Part shown: in pieces, positions 6,546 through 41,752 of the stretch | Layout: every line of letters starts with the position of its first letter | Numbering within the stretch: position 1 is the first letter of the stretch | From: Robiginitomaculum sp. | Lineage (GTDB): Bacteria; Pseudomonadota; Alphaproteobacteria; Caulobacterales; Maricaulaceae | DNA: 47,134 bases | NCBI GenBank assembly: GCA_021776595.1 | Contig: JAJFFP010000059.1 | Location: forward strand, 1 to 47,134 | Direction: 5' to 3' | Notes under the pieces: model-generated | Database searches by the model: none | Seen by the model: only the letters and a program-made list of their open reading frames with translations | What the model was told of the DNA's origin: nothing | Translations under genes and position numbers: made by a program

Positions 6546-6624
6546 TGTCATTACCCGGTTTATCCGGGTGATCCAGTTCAGCAAGGCAATTAGGACTGGA
6601 TTACCGAGACAGGCCCGGCAATGA
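6546..6624. repeat. Intergenic palindromic repeat, family B copy 2
   Basis: The left end TGTCATTACCCGG forms a hairpin with CCGGGTGATCCAG (ACCCGG-TTTAT-CCGGGT). The right part, read on the minus strand, is TCATTGCCGGGCCTGTCTCG, close to the left end of the copy at 15625. The right hairpin is degraded. It lies between the M28 peptidase and the convergent unknown gene at 6665. Confidence 0.7.
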
Positions 6625-6664
6625 AATGGCGGCGAGTTTCCCCCACAAAAACCTACCAATCGCC

Positions 6665-10915: not shown

Positions 10916-12220
10916 TTATAGCAGCATCATCGCCGGGTTTTCGATATAGGCTTTGAAGTATTTCAGGAAGTTCGCGCCGATGGCCCCGTCCACCACCCGG
11001 TGATCACAGGTCAGCGTCACCGTCATCATTGTGGCAATGCCAAGCTCGTTTCCAATGACGACCGGGCGCTTTTCGCCCGCCCCCACTGACATGATACACC
11101 CTTGGGGCTGGTTAATGATCGAGGCAAAGGATTTAATGCCCATCATTCCCATATTGGAGATGGTAAACGTGCCGCCCTGATACTCCTCTGGCATGAGTTT
11201 GCGGGCCTTGGCACGCCCTGCCAAATCCTTGACCTCGGCAGAAATGGCCGCAAGGCCTTTGTGCTGTGCCTGGCGCACCACCGGGGTAATCAGGCCACCA
11301 TCAATGGCCACGGCTACGGCAATGTCCGCATCATGCCACAGCTTGATCCCATCGGGGGTATAGCTGGCATTGGCATTGGGTGCTTTTTTAAGCGCCAGCG
11401 CGCAAGCGCGGATGATGAAATCATTGACCGAAATTTTGATGCCATCATCGGCGGCGGCCTCGTTTATGGCTTTGCGGGCGCTCAAGAGCGCATCCAGCTT
11501 ACAATCAATGTTTAAGGGAAAATGTGGCACATCGCGAAAAGATTCGGTCATACGCGCAGCAATCACTTTGCGCATCCCGTCCAATGGAACCAGATCAAAA
11601 CTGCCGGGGGCTTGTGGGGCCGGTGTAGTGGTTATGACAAGGCTGGAAGGCGCATTTTCAATATCGCGTTTGACAATCCGGCCATTTGGCCCGCTGCCGG
11701 TAAGACTGGCAAGGTCCAGCCCGGCCTCTTTTGCCAGGCGTTTGGCCAATGGCGAGGCTTTGATGCGCGATGCCCCCTCTCCTTCGACAAGCTCAGGATG
11801 AGGGGAAGAGACGAGCTCAGGGTGAGGGGAGGCAGCAAGCTCAGGGTGAGATTGAGAGACAGGTTCATGGGGGGGAGAAACAGGAGAGGGTCTAGTGCCT
11901 TCAACCTCATCCTGAGCTTGTCGAAGGATGGGTTCAGGCGCACTCACATCAAAATCATTCAGCGCCGAAGCATCCTCGCCATCCTCCAGAAGAAGCGCGA
12001 TGACAGTATTAATGGCAACATTTTCAGCGCCTCCCGGCACCAAAATTTTGCCCAGCACCCCTTCTTCGACCGCCTCCACCTCCATGGTGGCCTTGTCGGT
12101 TTCAATTTCGGCAATAACATCACCTGAATGGATTTCATCACCTTCATTGACCAGCCATTTAGCCAGCGTTCCCTCTTCCATGGTTGGCGATAAAGCGGGC
12201 ATGAGAATTTTTATCGGCAT
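10916..12220 (-). CDS. pdhC: Dihydrolipoamide acetyltransferase (E2) of pyruvate dehydrogenase
   Basis: The 434-residue E2 transfers acetyl groups from lipoyl-lysine to CoA. It has one lipoyl domain (1-80, lysine K43 in [11 protein letters not shown]), a peripheral-subunit-binding domain (about 150-185, [13 protein letters not shown] and GRIVKRDIE), and the catalytic core ending with [14 protein letters not shown], which carries the catalytic His and Asp. The linker between lipoyl and binding domains, residues about 97-147, is encoded by a palindromic repeat and reads as repeated peptides ([28 protein letters not shown]) instead of the usual Ala/Pro-rich swinging arm. Other domains look intact, so the enzyme is probably functional. 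It starts nine bases after the GFA gene's stop. Confidence 0.96.
11781..11930. repeat. In-frame palindromic repeat, family A copy 1 (inside pdhC)
   Basis: Arms are at 11781-11802 (CCTTCGACAAGCTCAGGATG plus AG) and 11906-11930, with perfect complementarity over the shared core. Between them are two partial extra copies of the arm core (GAGCTCAGGGTGAGG at 11813-11827, GCAAGCTCAGGGTGAG at 11835-11850). The reading frame of pdhC passes through unbroken and the total insert encodes about 50 residues of linker. Confidence 0.9.
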
Positions 12221-12229
12221 GGCTCTTCC

Positions 12230-12610
12230 TTACGCCAGATGGGCCAACGTATCCACATTGGCCTCCCAGTTCTGGCCGTCAAACGGTTCGATGGTAATGG
12301 TGCGAAATTCGGCACCCTTGAGGCAACGCAAATTCACTGACCACCCATCTGGATTGGAGCGCGGCACATAAAACGGTTTCACCCCGCAGGTTTTGCAAAA
12401 GAGATGCCGCGCCACGCCGGTGTTAAAGCGATAATCGGTGAGGTTTTCTTTGCCCTCACGAAGGACAAAGCGATCCTTGGGCACTATCAGGTGTAAAAAG
12501 CCGGTCTTGGCACAAATGGAACAATTACATTCCTGCGCGGTGATCTCTTCTGGCAGGCAAGCGGCAAAACGCACCGCGCCACAATGGCAGGCCCCTTCGT
12601 GCCAGGACAT
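12230..12610 (-). CDS. GFA-family zinc-binding protein (glutathione-dependent formaldehyde-activating type)
   Basis: The 126-residue protein has the cysteine pattern of the GFA/CENP-V fold: C8 and C10 in GACHCGAVRF, C28, C30 and C33 in CNCSIC, and C72 and C75 in CKTCG. These bind one or two zinc ions. Some members have been proposed to join formaldehyde with glutathione, but most are uncharacterised. The ATG at 12610 gives the family N-terminus and lies ten bases past the pdhB stop; an in-frame GTG at 12628 would overlap pdhB and has GAAGG nine bases upstream, so it is an alternative. It lies between pdhB and pdhC, where no known PDH function requires it. Confidence 0.82.
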   Translation of the reverse strand: MSWHEGACHCGAVRFAACLPEEITAQECNCSICAKTGFLHLIVPKDRFVLREGKENLTDYRFNTGVARHLFCKTCGVKPFYVPRSNPDGWSVNLRCLKGAEFRTITIEPFDGQNWEANVDTLAHLA

Positions 12611-12620
12611 GTCAGATGTC

Positions 12621-14045
12621 TCAGTCACGATAACATACCTTCTTTGCCGCACGCACAATATCTTCCGCCCCCGGCAGAGCCAGCGCCTCCAGATTACCGG
12701 CATAAGCCAGCGGCGCCTCCACCTGATGCACACGCGCCGGCGGCGCATCCAGATAATCAAACGCACCAATGGTAACGGCAGCGGCAATCTCTGCGCCTAT
12801 GCCCATACAGCCCCAGGCTTCCTCGGCGGTGACCAGACGATTGGTCTTTTTAACCGAATTGATCACGGTTTCCATGTCCAGCGGGCGTATGGTGCGCAAA
12901 TCAATCACTTCGGCGTCAATGCCTTGACCGGCCAGGGTGTCGGCGGCGGCCAGCGCAAAACCTACCATACGCGAATAGGCAACAATGGTAACATCTGCGC
13001 CCTTACGAGCAATACGTGCCTTGCCGATGGGCAACACCCAGTCGTCCATCTCCGGCACATCAAAACTCTCGCCGTAAATCAGTTCATGTTCCAGAAACAC
13101 CACCGGATTGGGATCACGAATGGCGGCTTTAAGAAGCCCCTTGGCATCAGCCGCATCGTATGGCGCGATAACGATCAGGCCCGGCACATGGCCATACCAT
13201 GGCGCATAGTCCTGACTGTGCTGGGCACCCACACGGCTGGCCGCTGCATTGGGACCGCGAAACACGATTGGGCAAGACATTTGCCCGCCAGACATATACC
13301 TTGTTTTTGCTGCTGAATTTATAATATGATCAATGGCTTGCATAGCAAAGTTAAAGGTCATGAATTCGACGATGGGCTTTAACCCGCCAAAAGCAGCACC
13401 GACGCCAAGTCCGGCAAAACCATATTCAGTAATCGGCGTATCAATGACCCTCCTGGGCCCAAATTCGTCAAGCAAACCACGGCTGACCTTATAGGCACCC
13501 TGATACTGGGCGACCTCCTCGCCCATCAAAAACACCCGTTCGTCCCGGCGCATTTCCTCGGCCATGGCATCACGCAAGGCATCGCGCACCGTCACAGACA
13601 CCATATTTGTTCCTGCCGGGATGGCCGGGTCTTCAGCATGGGAGGCAGATTTGATTGCCCCCTCTCCTTCGACAGATGCAGGAATAGGGGCAGCAGAAGC
13701 GGGAGCGGCTTTATCACCCCCATCCTCATCCTGAGCCTGTCCAAGAATGGCGTTGGCAACGGGCGCAGAGATATCCACACCCTCCAGCGCTGAAGCGTCC
13801 TCGCCCTCTTCCAGTATCAGCGCAATGACCGTGTTAATGGAAACATTTTCCGAGCCACCGGGAATGAGGATTTTGCCCAGCACCCCCTCTTCGACCGCCT
13901 CCACCTCCATGGTGGCTTTATCTGTTTCGATTTCGGCTATCACATCGCCGGGAGAAACCGTATCGCCTTCTTTGACCAGCCATTTTGTTAATGTGCCCTC
14001 TTCCATAGTGGGTGAAAGCGCCGGCATAAGTATCTGAGTTGGCAT
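12621..14045 (-). CDS. pdhB: Pyruvate dehydrogenase E1 beta subunit with N-terminal lipoyl domain
   Basis: The 474-residue protein joins a lipoyl domain (1-80, lysine K43 in [11 protein letters not shown]) to a full E1 beta subunit from about 148 ([16 protein letters not shown]), with [20 protein letters not shown] and [15 protein letters not shown] for cofactor and subunit contacts. A lipoyl domain on E1 beta is known in several alphaproteobacteria. The ATG at 14045 ([10 protein letters not shown]) aligns with the pdhC N-terminus; an upstream TTG at 14075 adds unrelated residues. Residues about 99-127 come from a decayed palindromic repeat (ILGQAQDE and PASVEG peptides), in the same linker position as in pdhC. 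The two lipoyl domains are almost identical, suggesting duplication or gene conversion. Confidence 0.96.
13666..13750. repeat. In-frame palindromic repeat, family A copy 2, decayed (inside pdhB)
   Basis: The right arm (13725-13750, CTCATCCTGAGCCTGTCCAA then GAATGG) differs from the perfect copy by a few substitutions. The left arm (from 13666, CCTTCGACAGATGCAGGAAT) has more. The pairing is therefore imperfect, but the translated phase is the same as in the other two copies. Confidence 0.75.
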
Positions 14046-14093
14046 CGAGTTTTTTGTCCTGTTCAAACGCTTCAAAGCGGCAAATGAGTGAAC

Positions 14094-14489
14094 TTATTTA
14101 TTTTGGAGCCGGGCGCGCAGAAAATCCAGCTCATGCTTGATATTATCGATGTCGCGCTGTGAATGGGCGATGGCGTCCTGGCCACCGGTAAAGACCACTT
14201 CTTGCAAGACTTTCATATCCACACCGACCTCACGCTCCACACAATCGGCAAATTCATGCTGGGTAGAGGTATAAGCCTCAAAGGCAGCGACAGAAGCATT
14301 ATATTCCTCTTTAGAATTACCCTTGATTTTAGGCTTGTCCGGGCGTTCGCACGTTGAAATTTTATATTTCATACCGGGTTTTATTTTCTCACCCGCTATT
14401 TTACCGGCCAAAGCCGGCCCGGAAATTGATGCCGCCAAAATCATGGCCGTCACCAAAGTCAGTTGCTTGTTCTTCAAAGACAGGCTCAT
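14094..14489 (-). CDS. Small exported protein of unknown function within the PDH cluster
   Basis: The 131-residue product has a clear signal peptide (MSLSLKNKQLTLVTAMILA followed by ASISGPALA, cleavage before GKIAGE). The mature part, about 100 residues, has two cysteines (in ISTCERPDKP and FADCVEREVG) that could form a disulfide, and ends in a predicted coiled helix (RDIDNIKHELDFLRARLQ). I recognise no family. Its ATG overlaps the pdhA stop by four bases, so translation is probably coupled to pdhA, a cytoplasmic enzyme. That makes an envelope protein in this position odd. pdhB starts 48 bases after its stop. Confidence 0.8.
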   Translation of the reverse strand: MSLSLKNKQLTLVTAMILAASISGPALAGKIAGEKIKPGMKYKISTCERPDKPKIKGNSKEEYNASVAAFEAYTSTQHEFADCVEREVGVDMKVLQEVVFTGGQDAIAHSQRDIDNIKHELDFLRARLQNK

Positions 14490-15499
14490 GACGGGCTCCC
14501 TGGTGCCAGAATATCAGTTAATAGCTCACTTGCATCCGGTTCCGGGCTGCCTTGTGCAAAGTCAGCCGCATCGCCGACAATAGCGCGCACTTGCTTATCT
14601 ATAGCCTTGAGTGCCGCCTCATCGGCCCAGCCCTCCTCCAGAAGTCGTGCTTTGGCGTGGTCGATCGGGTCATGATGCTGGCGCACCTCATTGACTTCAT
14701 CACGAGTGCGATATTTGGCCGGGTCCGACATGGAATGGCCACGATAGCGGTATGTTTTCATCTCCAGAATCGTTGGCCCCTTGCCGGAGCGGGCATGTTT
14801 GACCGCCCGCACCCCCGCATCGCGCACCGCCAGCACGTCCATGCCGTCCACAGCCTCGCCAGGTATGCCAAAACTGGCGCCGCGCCGGCATAAATGCGTC
14901 TCGGACGAGGAACGCTCGATCGAAGTGCCCATGGCATATTGATTATTCTCAATGACAAAGACTACGGGCAGATCCCACAACTTGGCCATGTTGAAACTTT
15001 CATAAACCTGGCCCTGATTGGCAGCCCCGTCGCCAAAAAACGTCAAACTTACCTTGCCGTTATCCTTGTATTGATCAGCAAAGGCGAGGCCCGTGCCAAG
15101 GGGCACTTGCGCGCCAACAATGCCATGACCGCCATAAAAATTCTTCTCGACGGAAAACATGTGCATGGAGCCGCCTTTGCCACGCGAATAGCCGCCAACG
15201 CGCCCGGTAAGCTCGGCCATGACGCCAGCGGCATCCATCCCCAGCGCCAGCATATGCCCGTGGTCACGGTAGCCGGTAATCATCTGATCACCATCGATAA
15301 TGGCCGCTTTCATGCCGGTAACCACGGCTTCCTGACCGATATAAAGATGACAAAACCCGGCAATCAGACCCATGCCATAGAGCTGCCCCGCTTTTTCTTC
15401 AAACCGGCGGATCAGCAACATTTGCCGATAGTATTCCATCATTTCCGCTTTGTTGGTTTTGCCGGGCGTGGATGATTTTTTTTGAGTAGATTTTGCCAT
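14486..15499 (-). CDS. pdhA: Pyruvate dehydrogenase E1 alpha subunit
   Basis: The 337-residue subunit, with PdhB, decarboxylates pyruvate with thiamine diphosphate. The thiamine-binding motif is GDGAANQGQVYESFN followed by IENN; the E1 alpha signature GGSMHMFS and the phosphorylation-loop-like region YRYRGHSMSDPAKYRTRDE are present. Length and motifs are those of heterotetrameric E1. The ATG at 15499 is followed by MAKSTQKKSS; no Shine-Dalgarno sequence is evident, and a 12-base palindrome occupies its place. It is the first gene of an eight-gene minus-strand cluster running to lpd. Confidence 0.97.
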   Translation of the reverse strand: MAKSTQKKSSTPGKTNKAEMMEYYRQMLLIRRFEEKAGQLYGMGLIAGFCHLYIGQEAVVTGMKAAIIDGDQMITGYRDHGHMLALGMDAAGVMAELTGRVGGYSRGKGGSMHMFSVEKNFYGGHGIVGAQVPLGTGLAFADQYKDNGKVSLTFFGDGAANQGQVYESFNMAKLWDLPVVFVIENNQYAMGTSIERSSSETHLCRRGASFGIPGEAVDGMDVLAVRDAGVRAVKHARSGKGPTILEMKTYRYRGHSMSDPAKYRTRDEVNEVRQHHDPIDHAKARLLEEGWADEAALKAIDKQVRAIVGDAADFAQGSPEPDASELLTDILAPGSPS

Positions 15500-15502
15500 T
15501 AT

Positions 15503-15514
15503 TTCACATGTGAA
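15503..15514. promoter_or_regulatory. Perfect 12-base palindrome just upstream of pdhA
   Basis: TTCACATGTGAA reads the same on both strands and ends three bases before the pdhA ATG. Position and symmetry suit a repressor-binding site or an mRNA hairpin at the translation start. The binding protein cannot be named from sequence. Confidence 0.4.
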
Positions 15515-15624
15515 CTAGATTGCGCATATAAACCTGTCTAACCCAGCGTTCGTTTCTCTGCAAGCTATCGATTGCCGGGGTTGGCGCGTTTCGCATTGAG
15601 TTGTCTCTACCGTTCCCCCGCTGA

Positions 15625-15707
15625 TGTCATTGCCGGGCCTGTCCCGGTAGTCCAGAAAATGTGTATAAAACAAGAACTGGATCACCCGAACCAGTCGGGT
15701 GATGACG
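15625..15707. repeat. Intergenic palindromic repeat, family B copy 3
   Basis: The left end TGTCATTGCCGGGCCTGTCC forms a hairpin with CCCGGTAGTCCAG, and the right half (CTGGATCACCCGAACCAGTC then GGGTGATGACG) forms the second hairpin. With copy 4 it fills most of the 395-bp gap between pdhA and the TolB/TPR gene; I see no gene in that gap. A frame of about 100 codons at 15572-15877 runs through both repeats and is not credible. Confidence 0.8.
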
Positions 15708-15796
15708 ATATGGTGAATCGGGTGATGGCATTTGTGATGAATCAGGAGATGGCAATTGTGGGTAGTATTTCGAGTTTAGTCCAAAATCATATTCAC

Positions 15797-15879
15797 CGTC
15801 ATACCGGCGCAGGCTGGAATCCGATTTTTAACATATCTCACCTTGAAAGAACTGGACCCCGATTTTCATCGGGGTGACG
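15797..15879. repeat. Intergenic palindromic repeat, family B copy 4
   Basis: The ends are CGTCATACCGGCGCAGGCTG and CCCCGATTTTCATCGGGGTG followed by ACG; the right hairpin has the same TTTTCA loop as copy 1. It ends just beyond the stop codon of the TolB/TPR gene (15895) and lies 90 bases from copy 3, so two elements occupy one gap. Confidence 0.8.
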
Positions 15880-15894
15880 CGCTATCTATCGTCC

Positions 15895-18114
15895 TTATTT
15901 CACCCAGTTTGGCTTGGGATTGGCCAATTGTGCTTCAATGGCTGCGCGCTGCATGGCGATATTTTCCGCCATACGTTTTTCGCGGGCCTTGAATGCTGGT
16001 GTATCACGCAGTGTGTCAAAAGCCGGGTTTATGAAAAACAGCGCATCAGCCAATCCCATATCCAGATACCGGTCAATCCACGCATAAGCCTTTTTGGGAT
16101 GTTGCTTGGCCATCTGTAATATGGCCCCGACTTGCAGGTCTTGCGACAGCGTTACCCCGGATGGATCATCACTGCCCAGATATGCATCCACTTTGTTGAT
16201 GAAAACGTGCGCATCCGCATCGTTTTTATAGCGAAGCAGAAAGGCGACATTTGCCACCGAATATGCACCGCTGTTAATACTGGTAGAGGTGATCTCTTGC
16301 GACAGCCAGAATTTTCTGACGGCAGGAACGCTGAATCCCTGATAAAGCGTCTTAAACTCACGCATCATATACAAGAACACGCCCAGATTAGGGTCGTCTG
16401 GCTTGCCCTGATATAGCGCCTGTATTTTTTGATATTCCCCACGCAGCAAATAAATGAATGATTGGCTGAAATCGGTTTTGGCAAATTTCTCCGCTGTTTC
16501 CAGCATGCCAAGCTGGATATAAATAGCAGCCAGACTTTCCCGATTTTGACCGCTTTCAGCGTTCAGGGCTTGCGCATCCTTGAAAAGGCTATGCGCCCCG
16601 GCTAAACCCCCCTCCGTCAGCAGCAGATTACCAAGCCCTAATGCACCAAAAGGACTGTCCGGGTTCCAGCGCAGGTTGACCTCATAGGTTTTCCTGGCCC
16701 CGGCGCGGTCCCCAAGGGCGATTTGCGCATCACCAATATTGATCAAGATAACGGCGGAAAGCGGGTCCAACGCACGGGCTTGTTGCAACACCTTTAGCCC
16801 CTCGTTTAGTCGTCCAGACGAAATCAGTGCGCTGCCCTTTCTGAAATAGGCATCGGCATAGTTCGGATTGGCGGCGATGGCTTGATCAGCAAAGGCAATG
16901 GCCTCGTCATATTTTTCTTCGATATTGGCCAGCAATGAAGCGGAGGTAAGCGCCTCAGCAGAATTGGGAGCCAGTTCCAGCGCTTTCTTGACATTGGGTT
17001 TGGCCAGATCAAGTAATGCTTTTTTATCCATGCCCGTATACCAGGTCATCAACATATAGGTATCGGCCAACCCGGAATAGGCCGGAGCAAATTCCGGGTC
17101 CAGTGCGATCACCTGCTGGTAATTTTTTAAGGCTGCGCGCAAACTTTCCGGCAAGCGTTTGCTCATTTGCTGCCGCGCCCTTAAATAAAGCTCATAGGCT
17201 TCCAGTGACCCGGTGCGCGCCGTTGCTTTGCTTGCATCTATAGATAAACGCCCCTTGATTTTATCAACAATGGCGGCGGCAATCTCGTCCTGAATGGCGA
17301 ATATGTTTTCTGCGGTCAAAGGCCGGTCCCAGGTTTGTGACCACATATGCTCGTCAGATTTGGTGTTGATGAGTTGTGCGGTGATGCGCAGGGTGCTGCC
17401 AGCTTTGCGGATACTGCCCTCCAGAACATGGTCAACATTTAGCGCCTTGGCAATTTCACCAATACCGATATCACGCCCCTTAAAAGCAAAGGCCGAAGTG
17501 CGTGAGGCCACCCGCAAACCTTTGATGCGTGCCAATACATTGAGCAATTCCTCGGATATACCATTGGCGAAATATTCCTGATCCTTGCCTGAGGAAAAAT
17601 CTGCAAACGGCAATACGGCGATGGAGGGACCGGCGCTTGTTAGCGTAATTCCATCCTTCGAGACAATCGCCGCCGCCGACACTTCTGATCCTTCGACAAG
17701 CTCAGGATGAGGTGACGCTATACCTGAAGCTCCACCAACCTCATCCTGAGCTTGTCGAAGGATGGGCGCAGGTCGCAAGCCCAGCCAGACCACCAAAGCA
17801 CCCACCAGCACCAGCCCGATAACAATCACAACATCCAGTGTTCGTCCGGTCTTGGCGGTAACACTCTCGCCCTCTGCTACCGTTTCAGTGCGTTTGACGC
17901 CCTCTGGCGTCATCTCAAACGCCCAGGCCAAAAGCATGGCAACTGGAAAACCGATAAGCAAAAAACTGACCACGATTGTATCAAACCATGGCGGCAAACC
18001 AAGAGCACTTTCCAATACGCCTGCCAATTGCATCAGTATCCAGCCAACCACAGCATAGACACCGGCAACGCGGAAAATATTGCGGCGACGCAATTCAGTG
18101 AGCAATTTGTTCAT
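15895..18114 (-). CDS. Membrane-anchored TolB-like/TPR protein
   Basis: The 739-residue protein starts with ELRRRNIFRVAGVYAVVGW, the N-terminus common to a large proteobacterial group often labelled adenylate cyclase-like. Hydrophobic segments lie at about 15-35, 45-65 and 94-113, with AWAFEMTPEGVKR after the second. A TolB/FlgO-like domain follows (about 150-265: SIAVLPFADFSSGKDQEYF, VLEGSIRK). The remainder, to about 700, is TPR repeats. No cyclase or DNA-binding domain is present, so signalling enzyme activity is unlikely and a scaffolding role is more plausible. Residues about 118-142, right after the third hydrophobic segment, are encoded by a perfect palindromic repeat. No close operon partner is visible. 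Confidence 0.85.
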   Translation of the reverse strand: MNKLLTELRRRNIFRVAGVYAVVGWILMQLAGVLESALGLPPWFDTIVVSFLLIGFPVAMLLAWAFEMTPEGVKRTETVAEGESVTAKTGRTLDVVIVIGLVLVGALVVWLGLRPAPILRQAQDEVGGASGIASPHPELVEGSEVSAAAIVSKDGITLTSAGPSIAVLPFADFSSGKDQEYFANGISEELLNVLARIKGLRVASRTSAFAFKGRDIGIGEIAKALNVDHVLEGSIRKAGSTLRITAQLINTKSDEHMWSQTWDRPLTAENIFAIQDEIAAAIVDKIKGRLSIDASKATARTGSLEAYELYLRARQQMSKRLPESLRAALKNYQQVIALDPEFAPAYSGLADTYMLMTWYTGMDKKALLDLAKPNVKKALELAPNSAEALTSASLLANIEEKYDEAIAFADQAIAANPNYADAYFRKGSALISSGRLNEGLKVLQQARALDPLSAVILINIGDAQIALGDRAGARKTYEVNLRWNPDSPFGALGLGNLLLTEGGLAGAHSLFKDAQALNAESGQNRESLAAIYIQLGMLETAEKFAKTDFSQSFIYLLRGEYQKIQALYQGKPDDPNLGVFLYMMREFKTLYQGFSVPAVRKFWLSQEITSTSINSGAYSVANVAFLLRYKNDADAHVFINKVDAYLGSDDPSGVTLSQDLQVGAILQMAKQHPKKAYAWIDRYLDMGLADALFFINPAFDTLRDTPAFKAREKRMAENIAMQRAAIEAQLANPKPNWVK
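17688..17763. repeat. In-frame palindromic repeat, family A copy 3, perfect (inside the TolB/TPR gene)
   Basis: Arms at 17688-17713 and 17738-17763 are exact 26-base inverted copies, separated by 24 bases. The left arm begins ATCCTTCGACAAGCTCAGGA. The gene reads through in frame, giving ILRQAQDEV and HPELVEG. The lack of any mismatch suggests a recent insertion or continued homogenisation. Confidence 0.95.
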
Positions 18115-40512: not shown

Positions 40513-41127
40513 TCAGATTTTATTGAAGAACATTAAATAGACCAGGCGGCCATTTTCCACGCTATCGCCAAAGCCTGGGCAGGCCGTGTGCCATAACCAG
40601 GGGCGCAATAATATCAAACGATTATAACGCATGGGGACCCGCATGGTGTGCTCCCATTTATCATAATCATGGGCATCATTGGCCAGAATGTTATTATAAA
40701 TTTCTGAGGCTTCTGCCGGGGTGGTCACGCCCAGTTTTTCCAAGTCTTTCGGGGCCAGCGTGGCCTGTTCCATACCCGTTGCACGGTGGCGGAAAAAATC
40801 CGTGCCGCCCTGACAATCTTTCGGACGGTTCAGGTACAAGATACCGGACCAATAACAATCGTCCACATGAATATCAGCCGCCCCGACTTCGCCTTCCAGT
40901 GTGAGCCGGGATTTTGCATGCCCTGCCCCCTCTTTAGGGGCGAGACGTTCCTGCACCAGTCTTGAAATTTCCTGCTCAATCCCCGGAATGGTAATCCGGT
41001 TTGCCGAATTTCGCCCTGGATACCCTTTGACGACATTGACCTCCGGGTAATCCACCTTGAGCAAGGCATCTCGCATAGCATCGACATTGCTCAGAAAATC
41101 ATCAATGACCATCAAGGAAACCGGCAT
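40513..41127 (-). CDS. DUF6445-like protein, candidate Fe(II)/2-oxoglutarate oxygenase, copy 2
   Basis: The 204-residue protein is a tandem paralogue of the next gene upstream. A possible iron-binding facial triad is visible: HVD in ADIHVDDCYWSGILYL and a distal His in LLRPWLWHTACPGFG, then an Arg in NGRLVYLMFF that could bind 2-oxoglutarate. The YPGRNSAN stretch is also conserved in both copies. The ATG at 41127 (MPVSLMVIDDF) is chosen because it aligns with the paralogue start; one at 41139 would overlap the upstream stop. The family name is from memory and the oxygenase role from motif layout. Confidence 0.6.
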   Translation of the reverse strand: MPVSLMVIDDFLSNVDAMRDALLKVDYPEVNVVKGYPGRNSANRITIPGIEQEISRLVQERLAPKEGAGHAKSRLTLEGEVGAADIHVDDCYWSGILYLNRPKDCQGGTDFFRHRATGMEQATLAPKDLEKLGVTTPAEASEIYNNILANDAHDYDKWEHTMRVPMRYNRLILLRPWLWHTACPGFGDSVENGRLVYLMFFNKI

Positions 41128-41131
41128 TGGT

Positions 41132-41752
41132 TCACCCATCCACCAGATCAAAGAACAAGAGATAAATCAGCCGGCCATTTTCCAGATTGGTTCCAAAGCC
41201 CGGTCCCGCCGTATGCCATAACCAGGGCCGGAGCAACACCAAACGGTTAAAGCGCATCGGCACACGCATGGTGCGCTCCCAGGCATCATCATTATGGGTA
41301 TCGTTCAGGAGAATGTTATTGAATATTGTGTTGGCTTCGCTCTTGTCCGAAATGCCAAGGTTTTCAAGATCTTCTTTTTCCAGCAATGCCCGCTCGGTTC
41401 CTGTTTCTTTATGACGGAAAAAGTCTGTGCCGCCCTGACAGTCTTCCGGCTTGCTAAGATATAAAATACCGGACCAATACCCCTGATCAATATGGATGTT
41501 CGCGGCCCCTTTGTCCCCGGCAAGGGTAATGCGCGCACCACCATGGCCGCAATCCAGTTTCGGCTTTAACGGCTCCTGCACAATGCGCGATATCTCATGC
41601 TCCAGACCTGGTATTTGCACCCTTTGTGCAGAATTTCGCCCCGGATAACCTTTAGGCTGGTCATCTTCTGGATATTCCAGATTGAGCACCGCTTGGCGAA
41701 ACGCAACCGGGTCATCCAGAAAATCATCAATTACAATAAATGAAGTGGTCAT
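41132..41752 (-). CDS. DUF6445-like protein, candidate Fe(II)/2-oxoglutarate oxygenase, copy 1
   Basis: The 206-residue protein shows the same layout as its neighbour: MTTSFIVIDDFLDDP start, YPGRNSAQR, HID in ANIHIDQGYWSGILYL, the distal His in LLRPWLWHTAGPGFG, and Arg in NGRLIYLLFF. The two are about half identical by eye, so the duplication is not recent. Its stop is four bases from the start of copy 2, so they form one unit. It lies 21 bases downstream of hutU on the same strand, so both may be read from the hutU promoter. The substrate is unknown. Confidence 0.6.
   Translation of the reverse strand: MTTSFIVIDDFLDDPVAFRQAVLNLEYPEDDQPKGYPGRNSAQRVQIPGLEHEISRIVQEPLKPKLDCGHGGARITLAGDKGAANIHIDQGYWSGILYLSKPEDCQGGTDFFRHKETGTERALLEKEDLENLGISDKSEANTIFNNILLNDTHNDDAWERTMRVPMRFNRLVLLRPWLWHTAGPGFGTNLENGRLIYLLFFDLVDG

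Follow-up and report, generated by a model that had tools for sequence, protein, structure and literature searches.

An intragenic REP-like repeat in protein linkers of Robiginitomaculum sp. and its congeners

A short palindromic element is present in three genes of a 47,134-nt stretch of DNA from Robiginitomaculum sp. (contig JAJFFP010000059.1, assembly GCA_021776595.1; Alphaproteobacteria, Caulobacterales, Maricaulaceae), the whole of which is here called the window. All three genes are on the minus strand, and two of them encode subunits with a lipoyl domain. The genes and the element copies that they carry are the following.

10916 to 12220, minus strand: pdhC, dihydrolipoamide acetyltransferase E2 (lipoyl domain, linker with the element, E3-binding domain, catalytic domain)
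11780 to 11928, minus strand: element copy 1, a head-to-head (HH) dimer in the pdhC linker, perfect arms 11780-11803 and 11905-11928
11788 to 11883, minus strand: degenerate 24-nt tandem part-copies of the arm within copy 1 (repeat family D7)
12621 to 14075, minus strand: pdhB, E1 beta with an N-terminal lipoyl domain
13665 to 13750, minus strand: element copy 2, decayed, in the pdhB linker, resembling pdhC linkers in spacer and right flank as well
15895 to 18114, minus strand: membrane-anchored TPR protein (anchor recognised by eye), belonging to a family with many members in the genus
17651 to 17670, minus strand: possible remnant of another type of repeat (type B, ...IVSKDG) beside copy 3, suggested by comparison by eye with type B linkers
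17688 to 17763, minus strand: element copy 3, an HH dimer in the juxtamembrane linker of the TPR protein, 26-nt perfect arms

The arm of the element (CCTTCGACAAGCTCAGGATGAGG) has five matches in the window at up to 3 mismatches, with 0 expected from 100 shuffles, and these five arms make up the three elements. The arms of the TPR copy (17688-17713 and 17738-17763, 26 nt) and those of the pdhC copy (24 nt) are 100% complementary. In the decayed pdhB copy, 13665-13691 matches the reference at 74%, and there are 3 mismatches in 13724-13746. Translated from the minus strand, the copies read ILRQAQDE...PHPELVEG in PdhC and in the TPR protein and ILGQAQDE...ASVEG in PdhB, and all arms recognised in the window follow one phase (2 for the F arm, 0 for the R arm). 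An earlier sequence-only reading had described one palindromic family, in frame and in one phase in three genes, with copies from perfect to decayed; both the arms and the translations agree with this. It had also located the copies in linkers, and the Pfam domain boundaries place the PdhC element between Biotin_lipoyl (5-76) and E3_binding (153-188) and the PdhB element between Biotin_lipoyl (14-87) and Transket_pyr (161-334). In the TPR protein the juxtamembrane position was assigned by eye: the element directly follows a hydrophobic segment and precedes a conserved SIAVLPF domain, and the TPR-type Pfam matches lie farther along than the element. The name TolB, initially given to this protein, was not confirmed by Pfam. 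The predicted RNA fold is very stable for the TPR copy (-53.3 kcal/mol, z -10.5) and for 11781-11930, the pdhC copy (-56.8 kcal/mol, z -6.9); that of 13666-13750, the pdhB copy, has z -2.5 and is equalled by 4 of 200 shuffles. An Rfam search gave 0 matches at the gathering score.

Across the genome of the window (2.63 Mb) there are 31 arms at no more than 1 mismatch (control 0), and the 17 congeners have from 0 to 108 such arms each. No arms were found in 7 searched genomes from other genera of the family. In a class-wide sample of 385 genomes, the window's own included, an arm at up to 1 mismatch is present in 32, spanning 22 of the 277 genera, and 7 stretches of viral contigs have the exact arm. 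A census of ten genomes of the genus, in which arms at up to 4 mismatches were grouped into clusters, gave at least 223 clusters, 30 of them scored in genes, or 31 when pdhC of genome G010 is added. The places in this census are among the matches listed at no more than 1 mismatch, together with chosen pdh and TPR regions, and clusters made solely of decayed arms escape it (seed arms up to 1 mismatch). Four genomes (G001, G010, G012 and G015) were covered in pdh or TPR regions only and the other six were sampled genome-wide; in-gene status is a codon score on both flanks, trained on the window, and not annotation. In the six genomes sampled genome-wide 26 of the 218 clusters are in genes and 192 are not scored in genes. 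For the window's genome the corresponding numbers are 3 and 21 out of 24, and all three in-gene clusters are in this window. A protein-inserting element as such is thus not supported, because the majority of copies lie outside genes. Both flanks match an element in another genome for 75 of the 193 clusters not scored in genes (G010 pdhC among the 193). The unit is 23-26 nt long with a CCTC head and occurs mostly single or as an HH dimer; intergenic two-arm clusters comprise 51 HH and 22 tail-to-tail (TT) dimers. In G017, the richest congener, the arm has expanded into tandem arrays (L195-L197, L327, L340, L381), with 24-nt part-copies in genes and periods of 47, 30 and 22 nt elsewhere.

These properties bring the element close to the repetitive extragenic palindromic (REP) sequences, and particularly to the CGTC REPs. 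According to PMC3733652, REPs also occur within genes, with dimers that amount to 20-30 residues and that may be neutral when they lie in flexible linkers; two Xanthomonas recB genes carry a REP at nearly the same position, and many repeats of the CGTC type have this motif altered to CCTC. The likenesses to the CGTC REPs as described there include the CCTC head, a stated CGTC variant seen here in 307 of the 339 census arms, as well as a stem that begins with AT, a mainly intergenic location, no dedicated transposase and intragenic copies. There are differences too. The stem is 8-9 bp and the loop 4-5 nt in that account, whereas the monomer here has a 6-bp stem and an 11-nt loop, and its predicted fold is no better than that of shuffles (26 of 200 as good). 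The CCA tail described for CGTC REPs is found in none of the 218 arms in which the closing AT is retained, the commonest tails here being GGA, GAA and GGG. HH dimers, predominant in that account, lead here too with 67 among all two-arm clusters, and TT dimers, rare in that account, number 22. Judged from such descriptions and not from a consensus sequence, the element would work like a CGTC REP, and it is not filed as one. Other palindromes of CGTC appearance are present in the window at 2485-2513, 6547-6627, 15624-15706 and 15851-15879 (GTCATTGCCGGGCCTGTCCCGG...CCAG and ACTGGACCCCGATTTTCATCGGGGTGACG); by eye they are probably ordinary CGTC REPs.

The resemblance to the Rickettsia palindromic elements (RPE), pointed out in the sequence-only reading, turned out to be stronger than claimed, as RPE-4 and RPE-6 of R. 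conorii correspond to CGTC REPs according to PMC3733652 and the head here is CCTC. By description, RPE-4/RPE-6 and RPE-1 are likewise in-frame palindromes in unrelated, otherwise intact genes whose protein products tolerate them. The element of Robiginitomaculum differs in being mostly intergenic and in having a host that is not Rickettsia, and, by the statement of the sequence-only reading, in its sequence. In addition, Rickettsia palindromes lose their repeat identity over time, as stated in PMC6649704, whereas here the detected arms stay near the consensus despite diverged neighbouring synonymous sites. The coding palindromes of nematomorph mitochondria, treated in the same text, are also inverted repeats inside coding sequence, but they are long and probably actively maintained, while the element here is a dispersed family without clear covariation of its arms. 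GTAG REPs with RAYT transposases share the short palindromes in HH and TT dimers and differ in the head, which here is CCTC with no GTAG tag. Mobilisation by a RAYT was considered and rejected, no arms being found at Y1 genes: the genus yielded nine loci with Y1 transposase-like genes (1.8-3.4 kb), none of which contains an arm at up to 4 mismatches, and in G017 no Y1 gene reaches E<=0.001. A text search of the literature found neither the 15-base arm core nor HPELVEG.

The 31 in-gene clusters are distributed over the TPR family (19 in 18 genes), pdhC (5), pdhB (3), a lipoyl-linker E2 of branched-chain type that adjoins its own E1 beta gene (2) and Mu-like prophage genes (2). One phase is common to 30 of the 31, so phases are not random within the genus; these 30 clusters are a few gene families and not 30 events. 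The spacing of the two arms is in frame in all 16 in-gene HH dimers compared with 12 of the 51 intergenic ones. For each arm one of the three phases has a stop. Of the two open phases the observed one is the more hydrophilic, with a hydropathy of -1.84 against -1.13 for the left arm and of -0.77 against +1.49 for the right arm, whose alternative is the hydrophobic LILSLSK phase, not seen in the genus census. Descent within few families, combined with a filter for stop-free and hydrophilic stretches, is sufficient to account for the one phase.

The element is probably best regarded as a dispersed repeat of REP-like kind, with in-gene copies that linkers tolerate and that are not a new protein part. 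The repeat would spread over the genome and settle mainly between genes, with a minority of its copies inside them. In-gene copies would persist at sites that can take an additional stop-free and hydrophilic stretch without harm, presumably the linkers that follow the lipoyl domains of pdhC, pdhB and the E2 of branched-chain type, and the juxtamembrane linker in the multi-copy TPR family. They may then pass to orthologues and to gene duplicates, at times being swapped in place for another REP type, and their peptide would vary no less freely than the corresponding bases of intergenic copies. The distribution, the phase, the shared sites, the identity of the bases and the lack of a peptide signal are direct observations; the filtering by tolerance, like the mode in which the element spreads and stays uniform, is what we infer from them.

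Three explanations of coding palindromes that are commonly mixed (peptide, hairpin and DNA unit) can be separated here with the intergenic copies as the yardstick. The sequence-only reading had proposed that elements open in both arms could be under selection to be translated. The single phase of 30 clusters, the two open arms and the hydrophilic peptide in linkers would suit an element kept as a selected linker peptide, but the peptide shows no sign of being guarded. The mean number of mismatches per arm is 0.74 in genes (n=46) and 0.71 between genes (n=293), a comparison in which detection at up to 4 mismatches inflates the absolute conservation and biases both sides equally. Nor is there a synonymous excess: changes in in-gene arms are 9 synonymous to 23 non-synonymous, with 8.3 to 17.2 predicted from the intergenic spectrum and an opportunity of 29 to 91. 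Many arm residues are altered in some copy or other, and element-free orthologues exist (G000 L201 compared with G004 L193, which carries the element; C-part identity 0.91). Selection for the peptide is not supported, and this explanation is very improbable; persistence of the arms inside genes cannot be taken as selection for the peptide.

Alternatively, the hairpin itself, as mRNA or as cruciform DNA, might be selected, for example for a translation pause between domains. The stability of the folds of the TPR and pdhC copies and the fact that 16 of the 31 in-gene clusters are HH dimers agree with this. The two arms of HH dimers also share variants slightly more often than shuffled ones (3 vs 0.84, p 0.049), but the excess is not clear for all 88 pairs (4 vs 1.64 expected, p 0.10) or for the in-gene HH dimers (1 vs 0.19, p 0.19), and 15 in-gene clusters have a single arm only at up to 4 mismatches. 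Selection for the hairpin is weakly supported at best and as an explanation quite unlikely; correction of one arm by the other, or hairpin selection, was set aside as a candidate for want of clear covariation. What does persist is the base sequence. In-gene arm codons that retain the consensus residue also keep the consensus codon in 300 of 310 cases (F arm 166/174, R arm 134/136), and the mean pairwise synonymous-codon identity of the flanks, from an analysis in which TPR and pdhB are mixed under the set labels, is 0.43-0.60 in three sets and 0.71 for the one E2 pair. As consensus codons have been kept while the flanks drifted, it is the DNA, and not the peptide alone, that is identical.

Three separate fresh insertions are not supported for the copies of the window. 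Congeners share the pdhC, pdhB and TPR sites, so orthologues have the sequence by descent in part, an outcome that the sequence-only reading had named as counting against it, and the PdhB linker resembles PdhC linkers in spacer and flank as well. At the same site after the pdhC lipoyl domain the left arm is intact in G000, G006 and G010, and a right arm is present in G001 and G017; in pdhB, right arms can be recognised in G002, G004 and G012. The spacer of G006 pdhC is similar to those of G000 pdhC (z 4.7) and G000 pdhB (z 4.0). Intergenic arms at like places differ by 0.81 per arm and share more variants than shuffled arms (9 vs 1.4, p 0.001). The pdhB and pdhC linkers have an 18-base identity at the right end, and copying of the linker between the two genes is possible from these similarities; an element variant flanked by CCCTCTCC exists and could likewise yield the shared flank. 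A recent conversion event covering the entire lipoyl domain was rejected as the source of the twin copies on the synonymous-codon identity between pdhB and pdhC, 0.52 in G000, with clade means of 0.517 within genomes and 0.457 between them.

Several observations weigh against tolerated, inherited copies of a dispersed repeat. Tolerance alone leaves the near-consensus arms beside far-drifted synonymous sites unexplained, and detection at up to 4 mismatches under-counts decayed copies. The spacer of G000 pdhC is only weakly like that of G000 pdhB (z 1.7, p 0.054) and unlike that of G010 pdhC (p 0.78). The TPR orthologue spacers of G000 and G004 are unlike as well (p 0.28), which makes re-insertion at the same site possible, and for in-gene arms at like places the number of shared variants does not exceed that of shuffled arms (2 vs 1.79, p 0.55). 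The phase filter rests on few independent events, with at most four gene families having dimers, and the pdhB and pdhC copies may be one event. In G003, the Mu-like transposase A and GemA each have a single arm inside the Pfam match (L356, L375), that of GemA in the other open phase. Outside the genus, 37 lipoyl-linker rows (at most 30 loci; L454 repeats L444) from 16 element-carrying genomes, G426 contributing one linker, have no arm except for a doubtful case in L450, a right-arm-like stretch with 5 mismatches ten codons past the lipoyl match. Linkers are thus not a general landing site. Clusters scored in genes were 1 of 35 in G426 and 1 of 40 in G266 (from 40 regions and 30 loci), and both of these weak candidates read the right arm as LILSLSK, in the other open phase; the G426 candidate resembles, by eye, an antisense shadow open reading frame, and that of G266 has 143 residues and a weak left flank. 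Separately from these points, Mu-like phages such as the one represented by the G003 genes could transport the repeat from genome to genome.

The missing excess of shared variants in genes and the unlike G010 spacer lowered the weight of inherited, tolerated copies and raised that of repeated site-preferring insertion, in which an active element strikes the same linkers again and again. Different REP types at one juxtamembrane site, other repeats in the pdh linkers of other alphaproteobacteria, the unlike spacers of the TPR genes and of G010 pdhC and the in-gene arms just mentioned all speak for it. The alike spacers of G000 and G006 pdhC and the intergenic arms that share variants by descent speak against it, together with the Y1 transposase-like genes, beside which no arm was found, and the element-carrying genomes outside the genus, which lack it in these linkers, the doubtful case aside. 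Such insertion is conceivable but doubtful.

The juxtamembrane linkers of 38 TPR genes, classified by peptide motif, contain this element in 15 cases, another REP type in 4, mixtures in 3 and none in 16. The other type, PFEAAK..APQDE ... PHPEER..SKDA, is read in the same head phase. On a tree of the C-parts of 37 of the genes the linker states are scattered, with 11 changes compared with a shuffled mean of 16.9 and with long-branch warnings; for type A at least 7 changes are forced by starred branches on this tree and 4 on the N-part tree. By peptide and by eye, pdhB and pdhC linkers elsewhere in the class also have apparent translated repeats, and the second REP type stands in the same frame in those of L035, L061, L077, G028, G029 and G040. 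In the congener pdhB/pdhC linkers L144, L145, L146 and L153 other translated repeats were seen by eye (SPSPQPSPQGEG and PPLLAGEV..SEGG), and in three of the four the same repeat type is present in pdhB and pdhC of one genome. A general excess of palindromes in lipoyl linkers was rejected for the 80 named loci, being weak except for the longest stems: stems of at least 11 occur in 8 of 134 lipoyl linkers, 0 of 132 catalytic windows and 23 of 670 codon-shuffled linkers, and stems of at least 13 in 3 of 134 and 1 of 670 codon-shuffled ones. The TPR family is in tandem expansion, with eight genes in a row in L189 (G004:C48:16500-34500) and further cases in L190 and L194, and the tandem arrays turn over strongly between congeners.

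A further explanation would make the DNA unit a joint for recombination or conversion by which modules are shuffled, with the N-terminal anchor exchanged against the C-terminal domain in the TPR proteins and the lipoyl linker exchanged between pdhB and pdhC. The mixed-type TPR linkers, the alike pdhB and pdhC linkers and the larger number of type A changes on the C-part tree would fit, as would the higher likeness of N-parts than of C-parts in element pairs (synonymous-codon identity 0.71 vs 0.52 for G017 L196/L197). However, TPR pairs have closer N-parts with or without the element, the contrast being equal in the element-free G000 L200 pair (0.69 vs 0.41), so the element is not needed for it. 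The C-part tree is weakened by long branches, and the G000 pdhB and pdhC lipoyl domains are far apart at synonymous codons. A recombination joint is accordingly an unlikely explanation.

A bolder view, which we put forward tentatively and consider rather doubtful, is that certain linkers are long-term housing for REP sites: the DNA unit, and not the peptide or the hairpin, would be kept base for base, REP types would be swapped in place and the phase would be set by the tolerance of the linker. If this were true, a sequence-specific role of REP units as DNA (binding, homogenisation) would override codon drift. Intragenic REP dimers are already known; the recurrent and type-exchanging use of the same linkers and the base-level persistence in genes are new. 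In-gene REPs amid far-drifted synonymous flanks make the uniformity of REP sequences directly testable.

Two further features were noted in the window. Degenerate tandem repeats of about 200 bases (families D2, D4 and D5) at 182-1147 probably belong to a repeat protein, and at 40513-41752 two adjacent paralogous genes are 73% alike over 188 bases (D3).

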